Part shown: piece by piece, positions 1,367 through 13,943 of the stretch
Layout of the letters: each line of letters starts with the position of its first letter
Position numbering within the stretch: position 1 is the first letter of the stretch
NCBI RefSeq assembly: GCF_004331645.1
Contig: NZ_SJSK01000002.1
Location: 558,001-622,000, forward strand
Direction of reading: 5' to 3'
Source: Pedobacter frigiditerrae
GTDB taxonomy: Bacteria > Bacteroidota > Bacteroidia > Sphingobacteriales > Sphingobacteriaceae
DNA length: 64,000 bases
Program-made: the position numbers and the translations under genes
The notes under the pieces: generated by a model
What the model was told of the DNA's origin: nothing
Database searches by the model: none
The model's input: only the letters and a program-made list of their open reading frames with translations

Positions 1367-2431
1367 TCAATTAAGCGCCTCTACGCCAGTTTTAGCAAAA
1401 TTACTGCACAAATCAAATGCGGTCTGGCTTCTCTGCAAACCTGCTCCGTACATAATAGATTTAAACTTGCTTTCTTCATCCTTGTAATTACGCACATTCT
1501 GGAAGTAACCCGTGACCGCATTATATGCCCCAAACAAAGTGCCTTTAGTTGTGGCTTCCTGTTGGGTAGGATTTGTTAAAGCATATTCCATTACGCTACT
1601 TACCATGTTATTGTAGGCACTTGAAAATTCATCCTGTTTACCAATTTTTAGATTAGCTAACGTTTCCTTGTTAGGTGCCACTGAGAGCTGAACCAAACGT
1701 TTTACCGCCCTATCGGTAATCTTAACCTTAGACCATTGGTTAAAAACCTCCTCCAATTCATTTGCTAATTGGTTGGTAATCCCCAAAAGTTTATTTGCCT
1801 GTTTTAACCTTTCCTGTGCGGTTGCGGTGTGGCGTATCTTAATGCAATTAGTATGGTTTTTCAATGCTGCATTTAAGGTATTTTGGCAACAAACACGAAC
1901 AGGCGTGAAAGATGCCATAATGCTCCCAAAACCATCGTGTGAAGATGTAAGAAAAAGATATTTCTCAATACAATCGTTTCTGCCAACACGGATAAAATCG
2001 GGCAGTTTTGCAGTAATAAAAATCCGTTCTCCCAATCCCAATGCCCCTGCGGTTTCGTATAAAATCCCATCTTTTCCACCTACAATACTATCAAAAAATG
2101 CAAATGCGTCTACATTCTGAACAATATTGTAATCTTTGCCAACGACCCCCAAAACCTCGTCCGTATCAGTTCTAACATTTGCATAATGGTTGGGTACATC
2201 AACACGCCATTCCATTACAATATCGTTGTCCTCTGTTTCGGGCGTTGTATCATCGCCATAGGTAAACAGGTTTCGTTTTTCTACGGTATAGTCTAAACCT
2301 GCGTGCTTGATTGCTTCGGCACTGGTCGGGTAATCGGTTATAATCTGCCCCAATCCGTGCCAAGCTTTTTCCTTTACGCTGAAAAAGCTGTGCTTTTCCG
2401 TTTTTTCGTTATAATTTAGGTTGTGTGCCAT
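1367..2431 (-). CDS. DUF932 (TIGR03299-type) phage/plasmid-like protein
   Basis: The 354-residue protein has the layout of the DUF932 family: an N-terminal KEKAWHGLGQII segment, a central block with VGKDY.IVQN and the FxDSIVGG segment, and a helical C-terminal tail ending in a short NPTQQEATTKGTLFGAYNAV-like region. Such proteins occur on Bacteroidota conjugative elements, plasmids and phages. Their biochemical function is not established. It is the last gene of a leftward operon: the small gene upstream overlaps its start by 23 bp, and a terminator follows it. It is intact and of usual length, so it supports reading this region as a mobile element. Confidence 0.88.
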   Translation of the reverse strand: MAHNLNYNEKTEKHSFFSVKEKAWHGLGQIITDYPTSAEAIKHAGLDYTVEKRNLFTYGDDTTPETEDNDIVMEWRVDVPNHYANVRTDTDEVLGVVGKDYNIVQNVDAFAFFDSIVGGKDGILYETAGALGLGERIFITAKLPDFIRVGRNDCIEKYLFLTSSHDGFGSIMASFTPVRVCCQNTLNAALKNHTNCIKIRHTATAQERLKQANKLLGITNQLANELEEVFNQWSKVKITDRAVKRLVQLSVAPNKETLANLKIGKQDEFSSAYNNMVSSVMEYALTNPTQQEATTKGTLFGAYNAVTGYFQNVRNYKDEESKFKSIMYGAGLQRSQTAFDLCSNFAKTGVEALN

Positions 2432-2615
2432 GATTGATGTTTTTAATGTTCCTTACCTTAGATACTAAAATTTCTGTTTCCAAAATGTTGACGTTTGCCA
2501 TATCGGATAACGTTAATTTTGACTGGGTTTCTATCTCGTGTACGATATCCCCCAAATTGGTATGGTCAGCATGAACTGCAACCCGAGCCATAATAAATAT
2601 TGTTTCGTATTTCAT
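2409..2615 (-). CDS. Small conserved-type protein upstream of DUF932
   Basis: The 68-residue protein starts at the ATG at 2615; a longer reading to 2654 would run into the hairpin at 2639-2667. It begins MKYETIFIMARVAVHADH, followed by an acidic helix (LGDIVHEIETQSKLTLSD). Its end overlaps the DUF932 start by 23 bp, which suggests translational coupling. I recognise no domain. Genes of this size next to DUF932 are common on Bacteroidota elements, so it is probably real and co-expressed. Confidence 0.6.
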   Translation of the reverse strand: MKYETIFIMARVAVHADHTNLGDIVHEIETQSKLTLSDMANVNILETEILVSKVRNIKNINHGTQPKL

Positions 2616-2676: not shown

Positions 2677-3252
2677 TTAGGCAGGAATAAAAATCTCTCC
2701 CTCAATTTCCGCTAACTTGTCAACGCACAAAGTATTAACCCTATTTACTACCTCACGGATAATGAAAGGGTTTTTTGTGGTAAACTCCCTGCCCTTATCA
2801 TCTTCAAGGGTGAGGGTACAACCTTGGAAAAAATTATTGTCCGTTTCTTCGGCATCATCCTGTTGCGCCACTTCAAAGGCTTCCAATGTGCTGATAGTTT
2901 CCAATAACTTGCCCCTTTGATTGATACGACGGTTTAAATCCAACGCCAATTTTATGGTTTTTTCCAAATTGAACGCTGGTTTTTCCTCTTTCAACTGTTC
3001 CTTGATTTCAATTTTGGTCGGGTCTGCTTTTGGTGCATCCTGTTTCGGGGTGTCTGCTTGTGGCTTTACCTGTTCTGCAGATTTTTCATTTGCAGGTGCT
3101 TCAATTTTTTTAACCTCTTCCTGTTTAGAATCCTCCTTGTTAGTTACCGAACCATTGCCAATTGGCGAGAGGGTTTTTACATCTGACTTTCCGTTTAACT
3201 GAGGGTTTGTTTTTCCATTTACGGTTGAACCGTTTAATTGTACTGTTTTCAT
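2677..3252 (-). CDS. Mobile-element protein with low-complexity N-terminus
   Basis: The 191-residue protein starts at the ATG at 3252 (MKTVQLNGSTVNGKTN). A longer in-frame reading to 3387 gives an arginine/proline-rich leader unlike the rest, so I reject it. Residues 1-95 are a disordered Lys/Glu/Pro/Ala-rich linker with repeated KQ.. and AP.. units. Residues about 100-190 form a folded domain (LEKTIKLALDLNRRINQRGKLLETI, then CTLTLEDDKGREF and NPFIIREVVNRVN). I know this arrangement from Bacteroidota conjugative elements next to DUF932 but cannot name a function. It is the first gene of the leftward operon ending at 1367. Confidence 0.7.
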   Translation of the reverse strand: MKTVQLNGSTVNGKTNPQLNGKSDVKTLSPIGNGSVTNKEDSKQEEVKKIEAPANEKSAEQVKPQADTPKQDAPKADPTKIEIKEQLKEEKPAFNLEKTIKLALDLNRRINQRGKLLETISTLEAFEVAQQDDAEETDNNFFQGCTLTLEDDKGREFTTKNPFIIREVVNRVNTLCVDKLAEIEGEIFIPA

Positions 3253-3454
3253 GATTTCTAATTTTAAATTTCTATTAATGATTATTTGAATAATTTCCCC
3301 AATCGGGGCGGTTTTCCTTAGTCGGTAGCTCTTTGGCGTACCGCATTGGCGTTTGGTGGGTGGGCTTCTGTCTTTTAGTGTTACCATATCTTTTGTTTTT
3401 TAAGTCCAGTCGGCAGAGCCTCCTGGCTTTTTGATAAACCCCCGCACCTGAACG

Positions 3455-3564
3455 CAATCCCCTAGCAAGGCAAGGCTTTGCGAAAAAAAACCTCGTGAGC
3501 GTAGCGAGCAGGGAAGATTTTTTCAGCAAACCCGTAGGGTTTAGCCTTGACGGCTAGGGGATTG
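3455..3564. repeat. Long nested palindrome in a 408-bp gene-free region
   Basis: The 3253-3660 interval has no convincing gene. Its core is a large imperfect palindrome. A perfect 12-bp outer arm (3455-3466 with 3553-3564) is followed inward by a 7-bp arm (3471-3477 with 3543-3549). Next comes an 11-12-bp arm with one bulge (3477-3488 with 3518-3530) around a small CTCG/CGAG stem. A separate perfect 6-bp hairpin (AAACCC GTA GGGTTT, 3528-3542) overlaps the inner arm, so two alternative folds are possible. It is visibly richer in GC than its flanks. Candidate roles are an oriT or other conjugation cis-site, a structured RNA, or a leader for the leftward operon. The sequence alone does not decide among these. 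Confidence 0.7.
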
Positions 3565-3660
3565 TTCAGAAATTTGTTCACAAAAAGCCTAGGTGAGAAT
3601 TTTACCTCACATTGGAAATCATAAATATTATTGTATAATAGCGAGTAAAGAATTGGCTCT

Positions 3661-4439: not shown

Positions 4440-4991
4440 TTAATGTTTGAATCTTTTAAACAGAGGTAACCATATGAACATAAATCGATATTGCCTTTTA
4501 CTTAATAGATAACAGCTTCTGTTGGTTCTTTTAATTCTTTCATTATTACCTATTTCTGTGCTGTCAAAAGAAAACTGTTGCCTATACTTATTTTGATATT
4601 TATCTTCATATTCAAAATATAACACATCCATCTTGAAATCATTGTTATCGATAACCAAAAATTCTTCCTCTTTAAATAACGGAAAGAAAGAGGCTCGTTC
4701 TAGAGTTGATGAAAGAACAGTTTTTCGGTTTTCAAAAGAAGCAATAGCGGTAGATGGATATTTAACCACAAAGACAGCTCTTTCGGAATTGCTAACCTTT
4801 AAATTGTACATATTTGACCTTAAACAGACAAGATATGGTTCAACCTCATTTCCAAAATCTGTCTTATAGTTGAAACTACAATATTCTCTTTTTTTAAATG
4901 TTCTGATGAAACCGATAATTCCTAAAACCGACCCGACAAGGTATAAGATGTCTTTGGAGAAATTCATTAGCTGTTGTTGATTGTCAATCAT
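4440..4991 (-). CDS. Unknown membrane-anchored cargo protein
   Basis: The 183-residue protein has one membrane segment near the N-terminus (about residues 13-29, ILYLVGSVLGIIGFI). A soluble domain rich in aromatic and charged residues follows, and a short basic, aromatic C-terminus (FIWLPLFKRFKH) could dip into the membrane. I recognise no family. It converges with the HELLH gene with 17 bp between the stops, and follows the HNH gene on the same strand by 15 bp, so it is probably co-transcribed with that gene. AT-rich codon use fits horizontally acquired cargo. Confidence 0.5.
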   Translation of the reverse strand: MIDNQQQLMNFSKDILYLVGSVLGIIGFIRTFKKREYCSFNYKTDFGNEVEPYLVCLRSNMYNLKVSNSERAVFVVKYPSTAIASFENRKTVLSSTLERASFFPLFKEEEFLVIDNNDFKMDVLYFEYEDKYQNKYRQQFSFDSTEIGNNERIKRTNRSCYLLSKRQYRFMFIWLPLFKRFKH

Positions 4992-5821: not shown

Positions 5822-6826
5822 TTATACTCTCATCCCTTGCCTTTGCTCAACTTCCTGCTCTTTACCCTTGTCTTTCGATTGGGTTGCAGACATTGATGGC
5901 TCTTTTAAGAACTGCTCCCTTTTTTCAGGTTTGCCATTTTCAGCATACATATTGATTTGACTGTAGCGTGGTACGGCCTCGATAAATAACTTTATAGGTT
6001 GACCATCTTTTTCCGTAGTCACAAAAGGACGGTTACCATTTTTAAGCGAATCTTCCAACAGCACTTTTTTAGCAGGGTCTTCCAATTCCTTGATATTGAA
6101 CCTTTCCAGTACCTTGTTAAGGTCAAAGCCATATTGTGGGTCGTGGAACTGGTTGGTACTGTAATTCTGGAAACGGTCTTTGCCCTTTTCAAAATCCAGT
6201 TTAACCCAAGCTTTGTAAGGCTCTCCCGAAAGGTTCATCATATCATCACGATAAACAGAACGACCTTGTATCAAATTTATAGCCTGCTCTGCTTTAAATC
6301 CTCTGCCTTTTTCTATCCAGAATGTCTGTGAAATCGGGTTGGCATAATAGGTACGCTGAAACTCTTTGTTCACATAGTTTACCTTTCCATTTTCCATATT
6401 GGCAACCATATTTTTACTAGCAACCAAATCTTTATTATTATCTCCTTTTCCAATGGCAAGTTCGCTATTGCCTGTTTGTTTTTTGAAGAAATTAATGGCT
6501 TCCTCGGTATTCAGGAATGATTTGATAAGGTTCTGTTTGCCGGCTTCTTCTGGTTGCGTTATCACTACATACTTTTGTCCTTCCTGCAAGGTTTTACCTT
6601 GGTTATGCGATACTTCGAACTTATTGAAGTAATAGAACTCCGATTGTCCAGACTGTTTGAAATGCAGGGTTAAATCTACCTGCCCTTTTGTTGCCTTAGC
6701 AATATCGTGCAACCTAAAATCGGGAACATTGTCCTTCATGTATTCTTCCATTTCACCAATGAGCTTATCCTTAAAGCCCAATCTTTTCATTTCATCTTTC
6801 AGGTCTTCTAAATTATTCAAATTCAT
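5822..6826 (-). CDS. DUF3945/DUF4099-like mobile-element protein
   Basis: The 334-residue protein begins with a helical domain (LKDEMKRLGFKDKLIGEMEEYM) and a beta-rich middle part. From about residue 190 it has the repeat-like segment LIQGRSVYR...GEPYKAWVKLDFEK, followed by FDLNKVLERFNIKEL, DSLKNGNRPFVT and a KLFIEAVPRYSQINMY strand. This segment order is that of Bacteroidota mobile-element proteins annotated DUF3945/DUF4099. The C-terminal 30 residues are charged and disordered. It follows traM by 15 bp in the same operon, where traN would be expected. Its function is unknown; the domain call rests on recall of the family pattern. Confidence 0.65.
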   Translation of the reverse strand: MNLNNLEDLKDEMKRLGFKDKLIGEMEEYMKDNVPDFRLHDIAKATKGQVDLTLHFKQSGQSEFYYFNKFEVSHNQGKTLQEGQKYVVITQPEEAGKQNLIKSFLNTEEAINFFKKQTGNSELAIGKGDNNKDLVASKNMVANMENGKVNYVNKEFQRTYYANPISQTFWIEKGRGFKAEQAINLIQGRSVYRDDMMNLSGEPYKAWVKLDFEKGKDRFQNYSTNQFHDPQYGFDLNKVLERFNIKELEDPAKKVLLEDSLKNGNRPFVTTEKDGQPIKLFIEAVPRYSQINMYAENGKPEKREQFLKEPSMSATQSKDKGKEQEVEQRQGMRV

Positions 6827-6841
6827 AATGCTATTTTTAAG

Positions 6842-7891
6842 TTAACGAATGGATTGATTTGGTTTGTTGTTGCGGAGCAGAACTGGATATTTTGCCTTCA
6901 ACTTGACTTTTATGCGCTTTACTTTTTTAGAGAAAAGGTTTTTCGTGGCTTCGATACCTGCACCTGCAATCTGTGCGCCCATTGACTGGTCTAATCCCAT
7001 TAGCTGTATATTCCTAACGGCATCATCCGAACCACCATTGATAGCATCGGTAAGTAATGCCTCTGGCGCCTCAATGCCACGGATACCGTCCAAACTGTAG
7101 ACCGAGAGGTCAACAGGTACAATGCGATTTCCCAAACGAATGGTCTTTATATCGAGCAACAATCGTTGGTTGGCAATATTGCAAATACCATAGATGAACT
7201 GCCCTTTTGGGATAACCTGTCCGTTGAGTGTTACGCTATCGAGCAGGCGCAATTTTATTGTAGCTCCCTGTAGCACTTTTTGGTTATCGACAATTACTGC
7301 GGGAATTGCCTTGAACAAACTGTCTGGACTATCTGCAACCTGATTGATGTATTTTTGCCTTACACGCTCTGGATGCTGTATATCCATTATACTCTGTAGC
7401 ATAGAGTTCATTTGCTCCATTTCGGGGTCTGAACCTTTGCCCGACTGCATAGAATTCATCAGCATTTCCAATCGGTCTACATCGTTTTTCATTCCGTTTG
7501 GCTGTTGCCTAACTGAAGTTGACGATGTGTTTGGTCTAGGAGTTGGTTTTGTAATTTCCTTATTTAACGCTTCCAGTTTCTGGTTGATCTGTTCGGTCTG
7601 TATATCTTCCTTTGCATTAAATCCCAATCGGTCGACAACATTTTTAATTCCGTTTTCATTTGCATTGCTGTCTTTTGCAGTGAGATTGTAGATGCCCATT
7701 TTATCTTTTGGGTCTTCGGTTTTAAATGAGGCGTCGGGAAGCGAGGTGTTTATTCCCTTACTATCCAGATGCCCTGACAGTTGATTTGCTTTTCCACCGC
7801 CCATTGCGTAAAATGCAAGTGCCATAAAGGGCAGTACCAATAGCGGTAACATCAATAGCACCTTTCTTTTGTCCTTTTGTTTTGTTTCCAT
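6842..7891 (-). CDS. traM: Conjugative transposon protein TraM
   Basis: The 349-residue protein has an N-terminal membrane anchor (about residues 10-28, LLMLPLLVLPFMALAFYAMG). A Pro/Gln/Asn-rich linker with two DRLGF/DRLEM patches follows, and then a conserved C-terminal domain (about 195-325: AIPAVIVDNQKVLQGATIKLRLLD, GQFIYGICNIANQRLLLDI, VPVDLSVYSLDGIRGIEAPEA). This is the layout of Bacteroidota TraM, a VirB10-like scaffold component of the type IV secretion channel. It is full length. Gene order J-K-L-M is the standard one, with 25 bp to the traL-like gene. Confidence 0.92.
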   Translation of the reverse strand: METKQKDKRKVLLMLPLLVLPFMALAFYAMGGGKANQLSGHLDSKGINTSLPDASFKTEDPKDKMGIYNLTAKDSNANENGIKNVVDRLGFNAKEDIQTEQINQKLEALNKEITKPTPRPNTSSTSVRQQPNGMKNDVDRLEMLMNSMQSGKGSDPEMEQMNSMLQSIMDIQHPERVRQKYINQVADSPDSLFKAIPAVIVDNQKVLQGATIKLRLLDSVTLNGQVIPKGQFIYGICNIANQRLLLDIKTIRLGNRIVPVDLSVYSLDGIRGIEAPEALLTDAINGGSDDAVRNIQLMGLDQSMGAQIAGAGIEATKNLFSKKVKRIKVKLKAKYPVLLRNNKPNQSIR

Positions 7892-12039: not shown

Positions 12040-12231
12040 ATGGAAGGTATGGGCGCAGAAATAAATGATAAAAATACATTAGAGGATTATATTGAAAATG
12101 ATATAACAGAGGAACAATTCATTGATAAAATCGATAAAGAATTACCTTCAATTTATGCGGGAAGTGAAGATAAAATGCTAAATTTAGTAGTAGAAATCAT
12201 TGTTAAAATCATAATAAAGGAGGTTTTATGA
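12040..12231 (+). CDS. Small acidic protein coupled to the recombinase
   Basis: The 63-residue protein is acidic in the first two thirds (LEDYIENDITEEQFIDKIDKE) and ends in a hydrophobic helix (LVVEIIVKIIIKEVL). Its TGA overlaps the recombinase start in an ATGA arrangement, and the recombinase ribosome-binding site lies inside its last codons. This predicts coupled translation. It may regulate the recombinase or serve as a directionality or accessory factor, but nothing in the sequence proves that. Confidence 0.5.
   Translation: MEGMGAEINDKNTLEDYIENDITEEQFIDKIDKELPSIYAGSEDKMLNLVVEIIVKIIIKEVL
12217..12224 (+). promoter_or_regulatory. Strong Shine-Dalgarno before the recombinase
   Basis: AAGGAGGT lies 3 bp before the ATG at 12228. 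Such a full anti-16S match is unusual in this window, where starts are generally AT-rich and lack it. It fixes the recombinase start and may point to an origin outside Bacteroidota. Confidence 0.75.
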
Positions 12232-13784
12232 ATGCTATTGGCTATATACGATTAAGCATAAAAGATCAATCACAATATTCATTAGAGTATCAAGAAAAAA
12301 GCATACGAGACTACTGTTTGCGAAATGATGTTAATGTACTAGAAATTTTCCAAGATAATGGAAAGAGTAGTTACACTTTTGACAGACCGAACTACATAGC
12401 GTTAGAGAATTTTATAAAAAAACATAAAGGGGTCGTAAGGTATCTTGTAGTAATGGATCATGATAGGTTTAGCAGAAACCTATCTGAGGTACTCACCAAA
12501 ATTGATGTTCTTGAGAAAAAATATGGCATTAAAGTGCTTGCAACTAATGAACCCCTAGATTTAGATACCACAGACCCATCGGTTTTTATGCAAAGAGCCT
12601 TTAAGTATTTGGTAGCAAATGAAGAGTTGTTCAGAATAAGAAAACGTGTCAAAATGGGAGTTAGACATGCTATTGAAAGCGGTAGATTCATAAATTTTGC
12701 ACCTTTTGGATACGTGAATGCCCGTGATGAAAGTGGCAAGGGAATAATTGTTATTGACGAAATTAAAGCAGAGATTATCAAGAAGATTTTTGCTGACTAT
12801 CTTGACGGCAAACAAGCTTTCGTCATCCATAATGAAGTTAAGGAACTTGGGTTTACCACTAAGGGAAACAGTGCAATTGTTCGCGTGTTAAGTAATTGCG
12901 TATATGCTGGCTTAATTAAAGTTCCTGCATACAAAAATTCCCCTGAAAGATATGTAAAAGGAAAACATACTAGAATTGTAAGTGAAATGGATTTTTGGTT
13001 AGCACAGGAAATGCTAGGAAACAAACGTCCGTCCAAATCCCGTGCAAAAGATGAAGTTCCGCTTCGAGGAATATTAAAATGTCCCTGTGGATTAAGTATG
13101 ACTTCTGGTTGGAGCAAAGGGAAAAAGAAGTATTACTTATATTATCGTTGTACCAAACATAGAGGTATCAATATTTCTGCACCAGATTTACACAAAGATT
13201 GGAATGAAATATTGTCGCTGCTTAGTTTTAGTCCTAATCAAGTACAAAAAATTCAAACAGAAAGTAAAAAAGCTATTGAGATTGCTTTATTAGGTGTTGC
13301 CGAACAACTAAGTGTCAAAAGAAAAGAATTGTCTGAACTTGAAATTAAAATTGATCGTTTGGAAGAGAAAATGATGAATGATGAGATTGAACCATATACT
13401 TATAAAAAATGGTTCAGTAAATACTCGGGACAGAAGGCTTACCTTGATAGTGAAATTCAAAATCTAAGTGCAGATCAAAAGGGCAAGTGGAAGAAGTCTA
13501 TGGAACTTTTGGACAACTTATTGGATATACCATCTATTTTCAAGCAGGCCGAAATTTTAGACCAACATTCTCTAATTAAAGAGGTGTTCAAACATGGTAT
13601 CACATATTCAAAAGGCAAGTGTCGAACACCTTCGGTAAATCCTGGATTTTCTCATAACTCATTGAAGCTAAAACAAATAGGGTTGCTCGATAACGAACAA
13701 CCCTATGAGAATTTGGGAATAAATCCCATCCGTACTCGGAGCGGGAATCGAACCCGCACGCCTGTTGAGGGCACAGGATTTTAA
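12228..13784 (+). CDS. Large serine recombinase (element integrase)
   Basis: The 518-residue protein has a resolvase domain (1-145) with catalytic S10 in GYIRLS and the DHDRFSRN motif (77-84). A recombinase domain follows (about 150-265), then a zinc ribbon (CPCG at 285-288, C308, with H311 or nearby as fourth ligand) and a coiled coil (about 345-440). This is the large serine integrase layout. It probably cuts and joins the element at tRNA-Leu. The C-terminal LKQIGLLDNEQP stretch still looks native, but the last 17 codons are antisense to tRNA-Leu, so the final residues depend on the integration site. Confidence 0.92.
   Translation: MNAIGYIRLSIKDQSQYSLEYQEKSIRDYCLRNDVNVLEIFQDNGKSSYTFDRPNYIALENFIKKHKGVVRYLVVMDHDRFSRNLSEVLTKIDVLEKKYGIKVLATNEPLDLDTTDPSVFMQRAFKYLVANEELFRIRKRVKMGVRHAIESGRFINFAPFGYVNARDESGKGIIVIDEIKAEIIKKIFADYLDGKQAFVIHNEVKELGFTTKGNSAIVRVLSNCVYAGLIKVPAYKNSPERYVKGKHTRIVSEMDFWLAQEMLGNKRPSKSRAKDEVPLRGILKCPCGLSMTSGWSKGKKKYYLYYRCTKHRGINISAPDLHKDWNEILSLLSFSPNQVQKIQTESKKAIEIALLGVAEQLSVKRKELSELEIKIDRLEEKMMNDEIEPYTYKKWFSKYSGQKAYLDSEIQNLSADQKGKWKKSMELLDNLLDIPSIFKQAEILDQHSLIKEVFKHGITYSKGKCRTPSVNPGFSHNSLKLKQIGLLDNEQPYENLGINPIRTRSGNRTRTPVEGTGF
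13677..13706 (-). terminator. Terminator downstream of tRNA-Leu, inside the recombinase 3' end
   Basis: A perfect 9-bp stem (13677-13685 with 13698-13706) with a short inner TCG/CGA stem is followed on the minus strand by TTTGTTTT. It can end the tRNA transcript. On the plus strand the same bases encode IGLLDNEQPY of the recombinase. Confidence 0.7.
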
Positions 13785-13817
13785 GTCCTGCGTGTCTACC
13801 AGTTCCACCATCCGAGC
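13733..13817 (-). tRNA. tRNA-Leu (UAA)
   Basis: The 85-nt gene on the minus strand has a 7-bp acceptor stem (13811-13817 with 13734-13740, one G-U), discriminator A at 13733, a long variable arm, and the loop CTTAAAA with anticodon TAA. The T-arm GCGGGTTCGATTCCCGC is perfect. CCA is not encoded. It overlaps the recombinase 3' end antisense by 52 bp and is the probable attachment site of the element. Confidence 0.97.
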
Positions 13818-13842
13818 TTAAAAGCATAAAGCTTTTAAAATT

Positions 13843-13868
13843 AAATGCCTCCTGGTAGGAAGGCATTT
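13843..13868 (-). terminator. Hairpin between tRNA-Gly and tRNA-Leu
   Basis: A perfect 8-bp stem (13843-13850 with 13861-13868, AAATGCCT/AGGCATTT) follows tRNA-Gly on the minus strand and precedes an AATTTTAAAA run. A second perfect 8-bp inverted repeat (13818-13825 with 13831-13838) directly precedes tRNA-Leu. They may separate or process the two tRNAs. Confidence 0.55.
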
Positions 13869-13870
13869 AG

Positions 13871-13943
<73 letters not shown>

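Follow-up and report, generated by a model that had tools for sequence, protein, structure and literature searches.

Single-strand promoters have been described for plasmid F. There, the Frpo stem-loop rebuilds promoter boxes, and recipients require it to express ssb and ygeA early; its shut-off upon conversion to double-stranded DNA has been proposed, and two such elements, Frpo1 and Frpo2, lie ~5 kb apart (PMC9849209). A survey of such elements used five known Frpo/ssi sequences as queries and TTGACA with TATAAT to find new ones; it places the relaxase usually in the last-entering region and leading anti-defence genes on one strand, and its main text contains no word beginning with ‘Bacteroid’ (PMC11541004). 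Elements built on a Bacteroidota box would be missed by this survey, as far as its described procedure goes, because it used TTGACA/TATAAT and known sequences. The single-strand promoters that we found in the parts of the published literature drawn on here have E. coli-type boxes, and a search of the open-licence PMC literature, with preprints outside its scope, found no paper on single-strand promoters in Bacteroidota among the texts available there. The primary sigma factor of this phylum recognizes a –7 box, TAnnTTTG, together with a TTTG around –33 that was not found in Flavobacterium johnsoniae (PMC7366714); the –7 box extends from –12 to –5 (PMC9723704).

Here we describe a hairpin of ~165 nt on the + strand of the window, a 64,000-nt stretch of the Pedobacter frigiditerrae genome. 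We consider it likely to be a Frpo-like single-strand promoter of leading-region genes, active when the operon template (+) strand is single-stranded. Its parts and the neighbouring genes are listed in Table 1. The initial annotation had described a 110-bp nested palindrome with two alternative folds at 3455–3564, and its elements are present as described. A perfect 12-bp outer arm (3455–3466 pairing with 3553–3564) encloses inner arms (3471–3476 with 3544–3549, and 3477–3488 with 3518–3530, with one bulged base), and a competing 6-bp hairpin, AAACCC/GGGTTT (3528–3533 and 3537–3542), has its AAA in common with the inner arm. Folding energies of these 110 bases were equalled by none of 200 dinucleotide shuffles, either as RNA (–48.5 kcal/mol, z –5.6) or as DNA (–29.3 kcal/mol, z –6.5). 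The borders of the palindrome, on the other hand, had been drawn too narrowly: it forms the inner part of the longer hairpin (3425–3589), which is extended by a basal stem and by an outer helix (3425–3433 with 3581–3589) seen when longer stretches of relatives were folded. The outer helix swaps its pair of arms among copies, being GGCTTTTTG/CAAAAAGCC in some and GCCTTTTTG/CAAAAAGG in others. At the gathering threshold, Rfam gave no family at the hairpin and reported two tRNAs only.

Table 1. Parts of the hairpin and adjoining genes, in window coordinates.
Feature	Position	Strand	Basis
Complete hairpin, proposed to be a single-strand promoter; the operon template lies on the + strand	3425..3589	+	covariance model R1 match; covariation
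Outer helix 5′ arm, GGCTTTTTG, would-be downstream duplex	3425..3433	+	pairs with 3581–3589; pair swaps in relatives
Interior loop 5′ side, would-be template side of the bubble	3434..3447	+	faces the –7 box and is largely unpaired when folded as DNA
Basal stem 5′ arm, including the 12-bp arm	3448..3466	+	pairs with 3553–3569
Upper stem 5′ arm with A8 tract	3471..3490	+	pairs with 3544–3549 and 3518–3530
Small side hairpin AAACCC-GTA-GGGTTT	3528..3542	+	sequence; helix 6 in the covariation analysis
CTTG, candidate –33 element, 19 nt upstream of the –7 box	3546..3549	+	spacing in relatives, weak
Basal stem 3′ arm	3553..3569	+	pairs with 3448–3466
–7 box GAAATTTG (relatives GAnnTTTG / TAnnTTTG)	3569..3576	+	box counts; loop position
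Outer helix 3′ arm, CAAAAAGCC	3581..3589	+	pairs with 3425–3433
Leader ORF start, MVTLKDRSPP; runs in frame into F0 in the window	3358..3387	-	
F0, first operon gene; no Pfam family	2677..3252	-	profile search; gene-side search
Conserved ORF of 68 aa lying between F0 and DUF932	2409..2615	-	protein family F9
DUF932 gene	1367..2431	-	PF06067

The host genome holds three copies of the hairpin. A DNA search returned matches in 12 of 59 genomes, its own included, all of the same genus as the window. A covariance model (R1) was built on 16 full-length copies after leaving out a 31-base match judged spurious (L016) and a copy with the 3′ arm broken off (L034). At E up to 0.01, R1 matched 139 of 399 genomes and 15 of 25 genera in the family, and 12 of 395 genomes (including its own) and 7 of 170 genera, belonging to six families, across the phylum; strict filters make these genome counts lower bounds, and the weakest matches are individually unchecked. 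When plasmids were searched by blastn, the window hairpin gave no match and neither did 523 bp beside the hairpin of an ssb-type locus (L155); the L155 hairpin itself gave 12 records, of which 8 were fetched. These plasmids come from Bacteroides, Phocaeicola, Parabacteroides and Prevotella and include pMMCAT of Parabacteroides distasonis.

The structure is conserved among these relatives. Over alignment A3 (78 distinct rows, 45 pairs), whose fitting to R1 favours the modelled structure, 91.1% of cells were paired versus 74.0% after shuffling, and changes on both sides were seen in 38 of 45 pairs, among them every one of the 24 that make up the outer helix and basal stem. The covariation score, for which all 80 rows (78 distinct) were taken, was 0.397, compared with 0.127 for shuffled alignments and 0.081 or less for slid structures. 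The initial annotation had proposed a covariance check in Bacteroidota, naming loss of stem pairing in relatives as grounds for giving up its reading; compensatory changes keep the pairing, and the structure that it pointed out beside conjugation genes is a conserved one. As in elements of the Frpo kind, an intergenic strand forms a stable hairpin with conserved structure.

A fold of the mRNA (minus strand) would tolerate G.U wobbles, which read as A.C on the + strand. When both arms were scored symmetrically, isolated mismatches between paired positions in 68 non-redundant elements comprised 58 G.T, 21 A.C and 149 others (p 4e-5 for the G.T versus A.C asymmetry), 28 elements being richer in G.T and 7 in A.C. 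A model-based wobble count, which could favour the modelled strand and was repeated with the symmetric scoring, agrees (G.T 128 versus A.C 49; 46 versus 7 elements). Because G.T mismatches outnumber A.C, selection is on the + strand: the folding strand under selection is the operon template, opposite to the mRNA. Two reverse-strand A3 matches (L092 -, L093 +) were omitted from the strand, box, loop-position and leader counts.

The 3′ arm of the folding strand carries a box of the Bacteroidota type. The pattern [TG]AnnTTTG is found there in 51 of 68 non-redundant elements (mean 3.7 and maximum 11 in shuffles) and missing from 17; on the 5′ arm, in operon sense, it occurs in none of the 68. Strict TAnnTTTG is present in 17 of the 68, versus 1.2 in shuffles (maximum 5). 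The window box, GAAATTTG, belongs to the main class, in which G stands in place of the consensus T (33 of 56 boxed elements). Among the 15 phylum-level rows, 10 are boxed, nine with TAnnTTTG and one with GAnnTTTG, and all eight fetched plasmid copies (of 12 found), some of them nearly identical, have a perfect TAnnTTTG. The two middle bases vary across the 56 boxed elements (AA 29, CC 11, AC 5, TT 3, others). The box sits in the interior loop: across 61 boxed elements of 80, the mean unpaired probabilities of A and the two following bases are 0.81, 0.79 and 0.78, while the ends are more paired (0.33 for the first base, 0.12 for the last G). As modelled, the loop resembles an open promoter complex: melting begins at –11, and duplex resumes downstream.

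Evidence for a –33 element is weak and not convincing. In raw counts, YTTG lies 19–23 nt upstream of the box in 37 of 56 boxed elements and 15–18 or 25 nt upstream in 12, and is absent at 15–25 nt in the other 7. A run of five or more T stands upstream in 47 of 56, likewise a raw count, and resembles the UP element named for Frpo (PMC11541004). In double-stranded DNA the box is directed away from the operon. Read in the direction of the operon, TAnnTTTG is present in 0 of 54 leaders (2.3 expected) and in 1 of 78 upstream stretches (6.6 expected).

The initial annotation had suggested a leader for the DUF932 operon, and the position is right: in operon sense the hairpin is followed by F0, often by a small ORF, and then by DUF932. 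Automated assignment placed F0 first or second after the hairpin in 58 of 78 loci. In some of the other 20 the first gene is ssb (L123, L124, L125), DUF932 (L020) or radC (L069, the copy at 6772); among the first-gene proteins of L123, L124, L125, L020 and L069, Pfam confirmed SSB for two and RadC for one. Roughly a dozen of the 78 loci adjoin genes without a known transfer role. In five phylum rows (L149, L151, L152, L154, L155) the hairpin precedes genes that are ssb-like and then DUF932-like, by resemblance only, and PRTRC genes follow further on in ssb-type loci (PF19556 and PF14454 confirmed for one copy). It stands before ArdA in L146 and L156 (PF07275 at the same places) and before a JAB-domain gene and ArdA on a Bacteroides ovatus plasmid. 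The hairpin is thus found directly before the leading-region genes ssb, ardA, radC and DUF932 in relatives, and before F0-DUF932 in the window.

Starting from the gene side, a search with F0 found the hairpin upstream in 66 of 72 loci, some of them contigs used to build R1, and in each case the hairpin lay on the other strand from F0. Six F0 loci lack it: two (L216, L241) are cut by a contig end and four (L229, L245, L247, L249) are not. Named loci bearing F0 belong mostly to Pedobacter and Mucilaginibacter. The corresponding ArdA search covered 390 genomes across the phylum and gave 13 loci in 12 of them. Three loci, all of one family and one of them missed by R1, have the hairpin, each time with a perfect box; the other ten have no such hairpin.

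F0 itself was modelled with low confidence (mean pLDDT 66.5) as a disordered N-terminal half and a helix-strand-strand-helix (alpha-beta-beta-alpha) core, and at E up to 0.001 the model matched nothing in the PDB. In one locus, L145, the two hairpins (at 4458 and 9337, 4.9 kb apart) precede large genes with no Pfam family in the stretch tested; an N6 DNA methylase lies within one of the two operons, and the large genes are candidate anti-restriction genes.

Compared with Frpo1 and Frpo2, the element is similarly a stem-loop of one strand that would rebuild a promoter box of its host (PMC9849209, PMC11541004). It shares with Frpo an A/T-rich part above the boxes and a position upstream of ssb and other leading genes, and with the Frpo1/Frpo2 pair the presence of copies ~5 kb apart in one orientation (tandem hairpins 5.4 kb apart in L069, 4.9 kb in L145). 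The leading region of plasmid F resembles the hairpin loci in having ssb, an antirestriction gene and a DUF932 gene, the latter probably being ygeB, behind Frpo1. Unlike Frpo, our element has, in place of TATAAT, the box read by the primary sigma factor of Bacteroidota, and it mostly stands before F0-DUF932 instead of ssb. Direct comparison of four hairpins with the plasmid F leading region revealed no significant likeness (one 13-base match, E 0.088), and when the stretches of plasmid F ahead of ssb and ahead of the gene preceding DUF932 were folded, they gave strong hairpins with no TTGACA or TATAAT match. The DUF932 proteins of plasmid F and of the window are weakly alike (E 0.004 over 70 aa). 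The integrative and conjugative element ICEBs1 likewise carries a single-strand element, sso1, likened here by description only; sso1 differs in being an origin of complementary-strand synthesis in a Gram-positive element (PMC4595007).

We propose that the + strand would be the one transferred, and that on entering the recipient in single-stranded form it would form the hairpin. The basal stem and the upper stem, which contains the A/T tract, would then serve as the upstream duplex and the outer helix as the downstream duplex, with the interior loop leaving AnnTTT of the –7 box unpaired and the 3′ arm acting as the non-template strand. RNA polymerase with the primary Bacteroidota sigma factor could load on this pre-opened promoter and, using the 5′ arm as template, transcribe on into F0-DUF932, or in relatives into ssb, ardA or radC. 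Synthesis of the complementary strand would abolish the fold, and the same box in double-stranded DNA would fire away from the operon.

The positions of relaxase genes bear on the direction of transfer. Relaxases of at least 400 aa, a cut chosen after the PF03432 results for the host genome, lie within 60 kb of 14 of 50 hairpin places (25 genomes), at distances of 14–55 kb, and are encoded on the operon strand in 13 of these 14 cases and in 17 of 19 within 90 kb; for relaxases of at least 200 aa within 60 kb the figure is 13 of 17. Given where the survey places relaxases and leading genes (PMC11541004), this agreement is as expected, and it is not proof that the + strand is transferred. The initial annotation had noted that no relaxase is encoded nearby, and a PF03432 search extends this to the whole host genome, where none was found. 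Since, in addition, the identified tra genes of the window (the rest of which was scanned in part) end with traJ, the window copy of the element may be a remnant.

Several other explanations of the hairpin were weighed. A structured mRNA leader of F0-DUF932, such as a riboswitch, attenuator or thermometer folded in the minus-strand transcript, would account for an element that stands between the operon and its upstream region and is followed by a leader ORF, and the minus strand does fold too. Such a leader, also raised by the initial annotation, is nevertheless unlikely: the asymmetry of mismatches, mostly G.T on the + strand and hence A.C in mRNA, puts the fold on the opposite strand, an operon-sense TAnnTTTG is rarer upstream than expected, and the downstream genes differ (F0, ssb, ardA, radC). 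We give about the same small chance, perhaps slightly more, to an RNA-polymerase-dependent single-strand origin (sso/ssi) that mainly primes the complementary strand, with expression incidental. It would need the same fold and box, and Frpo is named for both uses; the title of Masai and Arai 1997 reportedly names it as promoter and origin alike. The tight link to the operon in one orientation (66 of 72 F0 loci) and the tandem copies before separate operons, however, suit a promoter better.

Two further readings seem to us highly improbable. One is a transfer origin, which the initial annotation had considered, or a relaxosome binding site. Inverted repeats within a conjugative element, with no other obvious oriT in view, speak for it, but the relaxases found within 60 kb are distant in all 14 cases, some elements have tandem copies, and a promoter box is under selection. 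An ordinary double-stranded promoter with dyad symmetry, making + strand RNA rightward, fits the direction of the –7 box in duplex DNA; it has very little to recommend it otherwise, as what lies to the right varies while the left-hand operon is conserved, and an ordinary promoter needs no covarying hairpin of 165 nt. A terminator of the tra operon was rejected as a candidate, the element being present also without adjoining tra genes.

If the hairpin is indeed a single-strand promoter, protective genes would be switched on as a conjugating element enters a new cell, and a phylum abundant in gut and soil would follow the same entry strategy with a different promoter, pMMCAT and other gut plasmids included. 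Leading regions, and hence candidate anti-defence genes, could then be recognized by the hairpin, and early expression on arrival would be directly testable.

Mostly 30–60 nt after the hairpin, there is a short ORF of the form M-x(n)-R[S/A/G]PP. The motif is present in 74 of 135 distinct leaders (RSPP 52, RAPP 11, KAPP 6, RGPP 5) and in 59 of 111 non-redundant leaders, versus 0.5 in shuffles (maximum 2), and it is encoded by different synonymous codons; no such ORF was found in the ssb and ardA types examined. As in arrest-peptide leaders with RAPP/RGPP, a short ORF with R-[A/G/S]-P-P lies upstream of a gene; in contrast to those leaders, the motif here is mostly RSPP and lies close to the N-terminus of a tiny ORF. 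Arrest is supported by RAPP and RGPP, whereas RSPP, which bacterial proteomes contain less often than expected, is partially permissive (PMC12992588); the A132S variant of ApdP is listed as non-stalling (PMC10951233). That the leader ORF might stall ribosomes is our guess. A broader possibility, which we hold only tentatively, is that mobile elements of Bacteroidota have their own class of single-strand promoters based on the –7 box, and that in the Pedobacter/Mucilaginibacter branch these promoters are coupled to an R[S/A/G]PP arrest-type leader, forming a two-step entry switch in which transcription of the first leading genes would be gated by single-stranded DNA and their translation by stalling. 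In many of the leaders between hairpin and F0 there is also a conserved GCCC-GGGC hairpin before the F0 start codon (alignment A9, columns ~148–163).

Two further observations concern the elements themselves. One contig, represented by L067 and L068, bears three hairpins of a distant class (at 7392, 17595 and 14730), within 27 kb and in one orientation, the first two of which are not followed by known leading genes. In the window, a large serine recombinase gene (12228–13784) overlaps a tRNA gene on the opposite strand and a second tRNA gene adjoins, so that 12228–13943 is a probable integration site.
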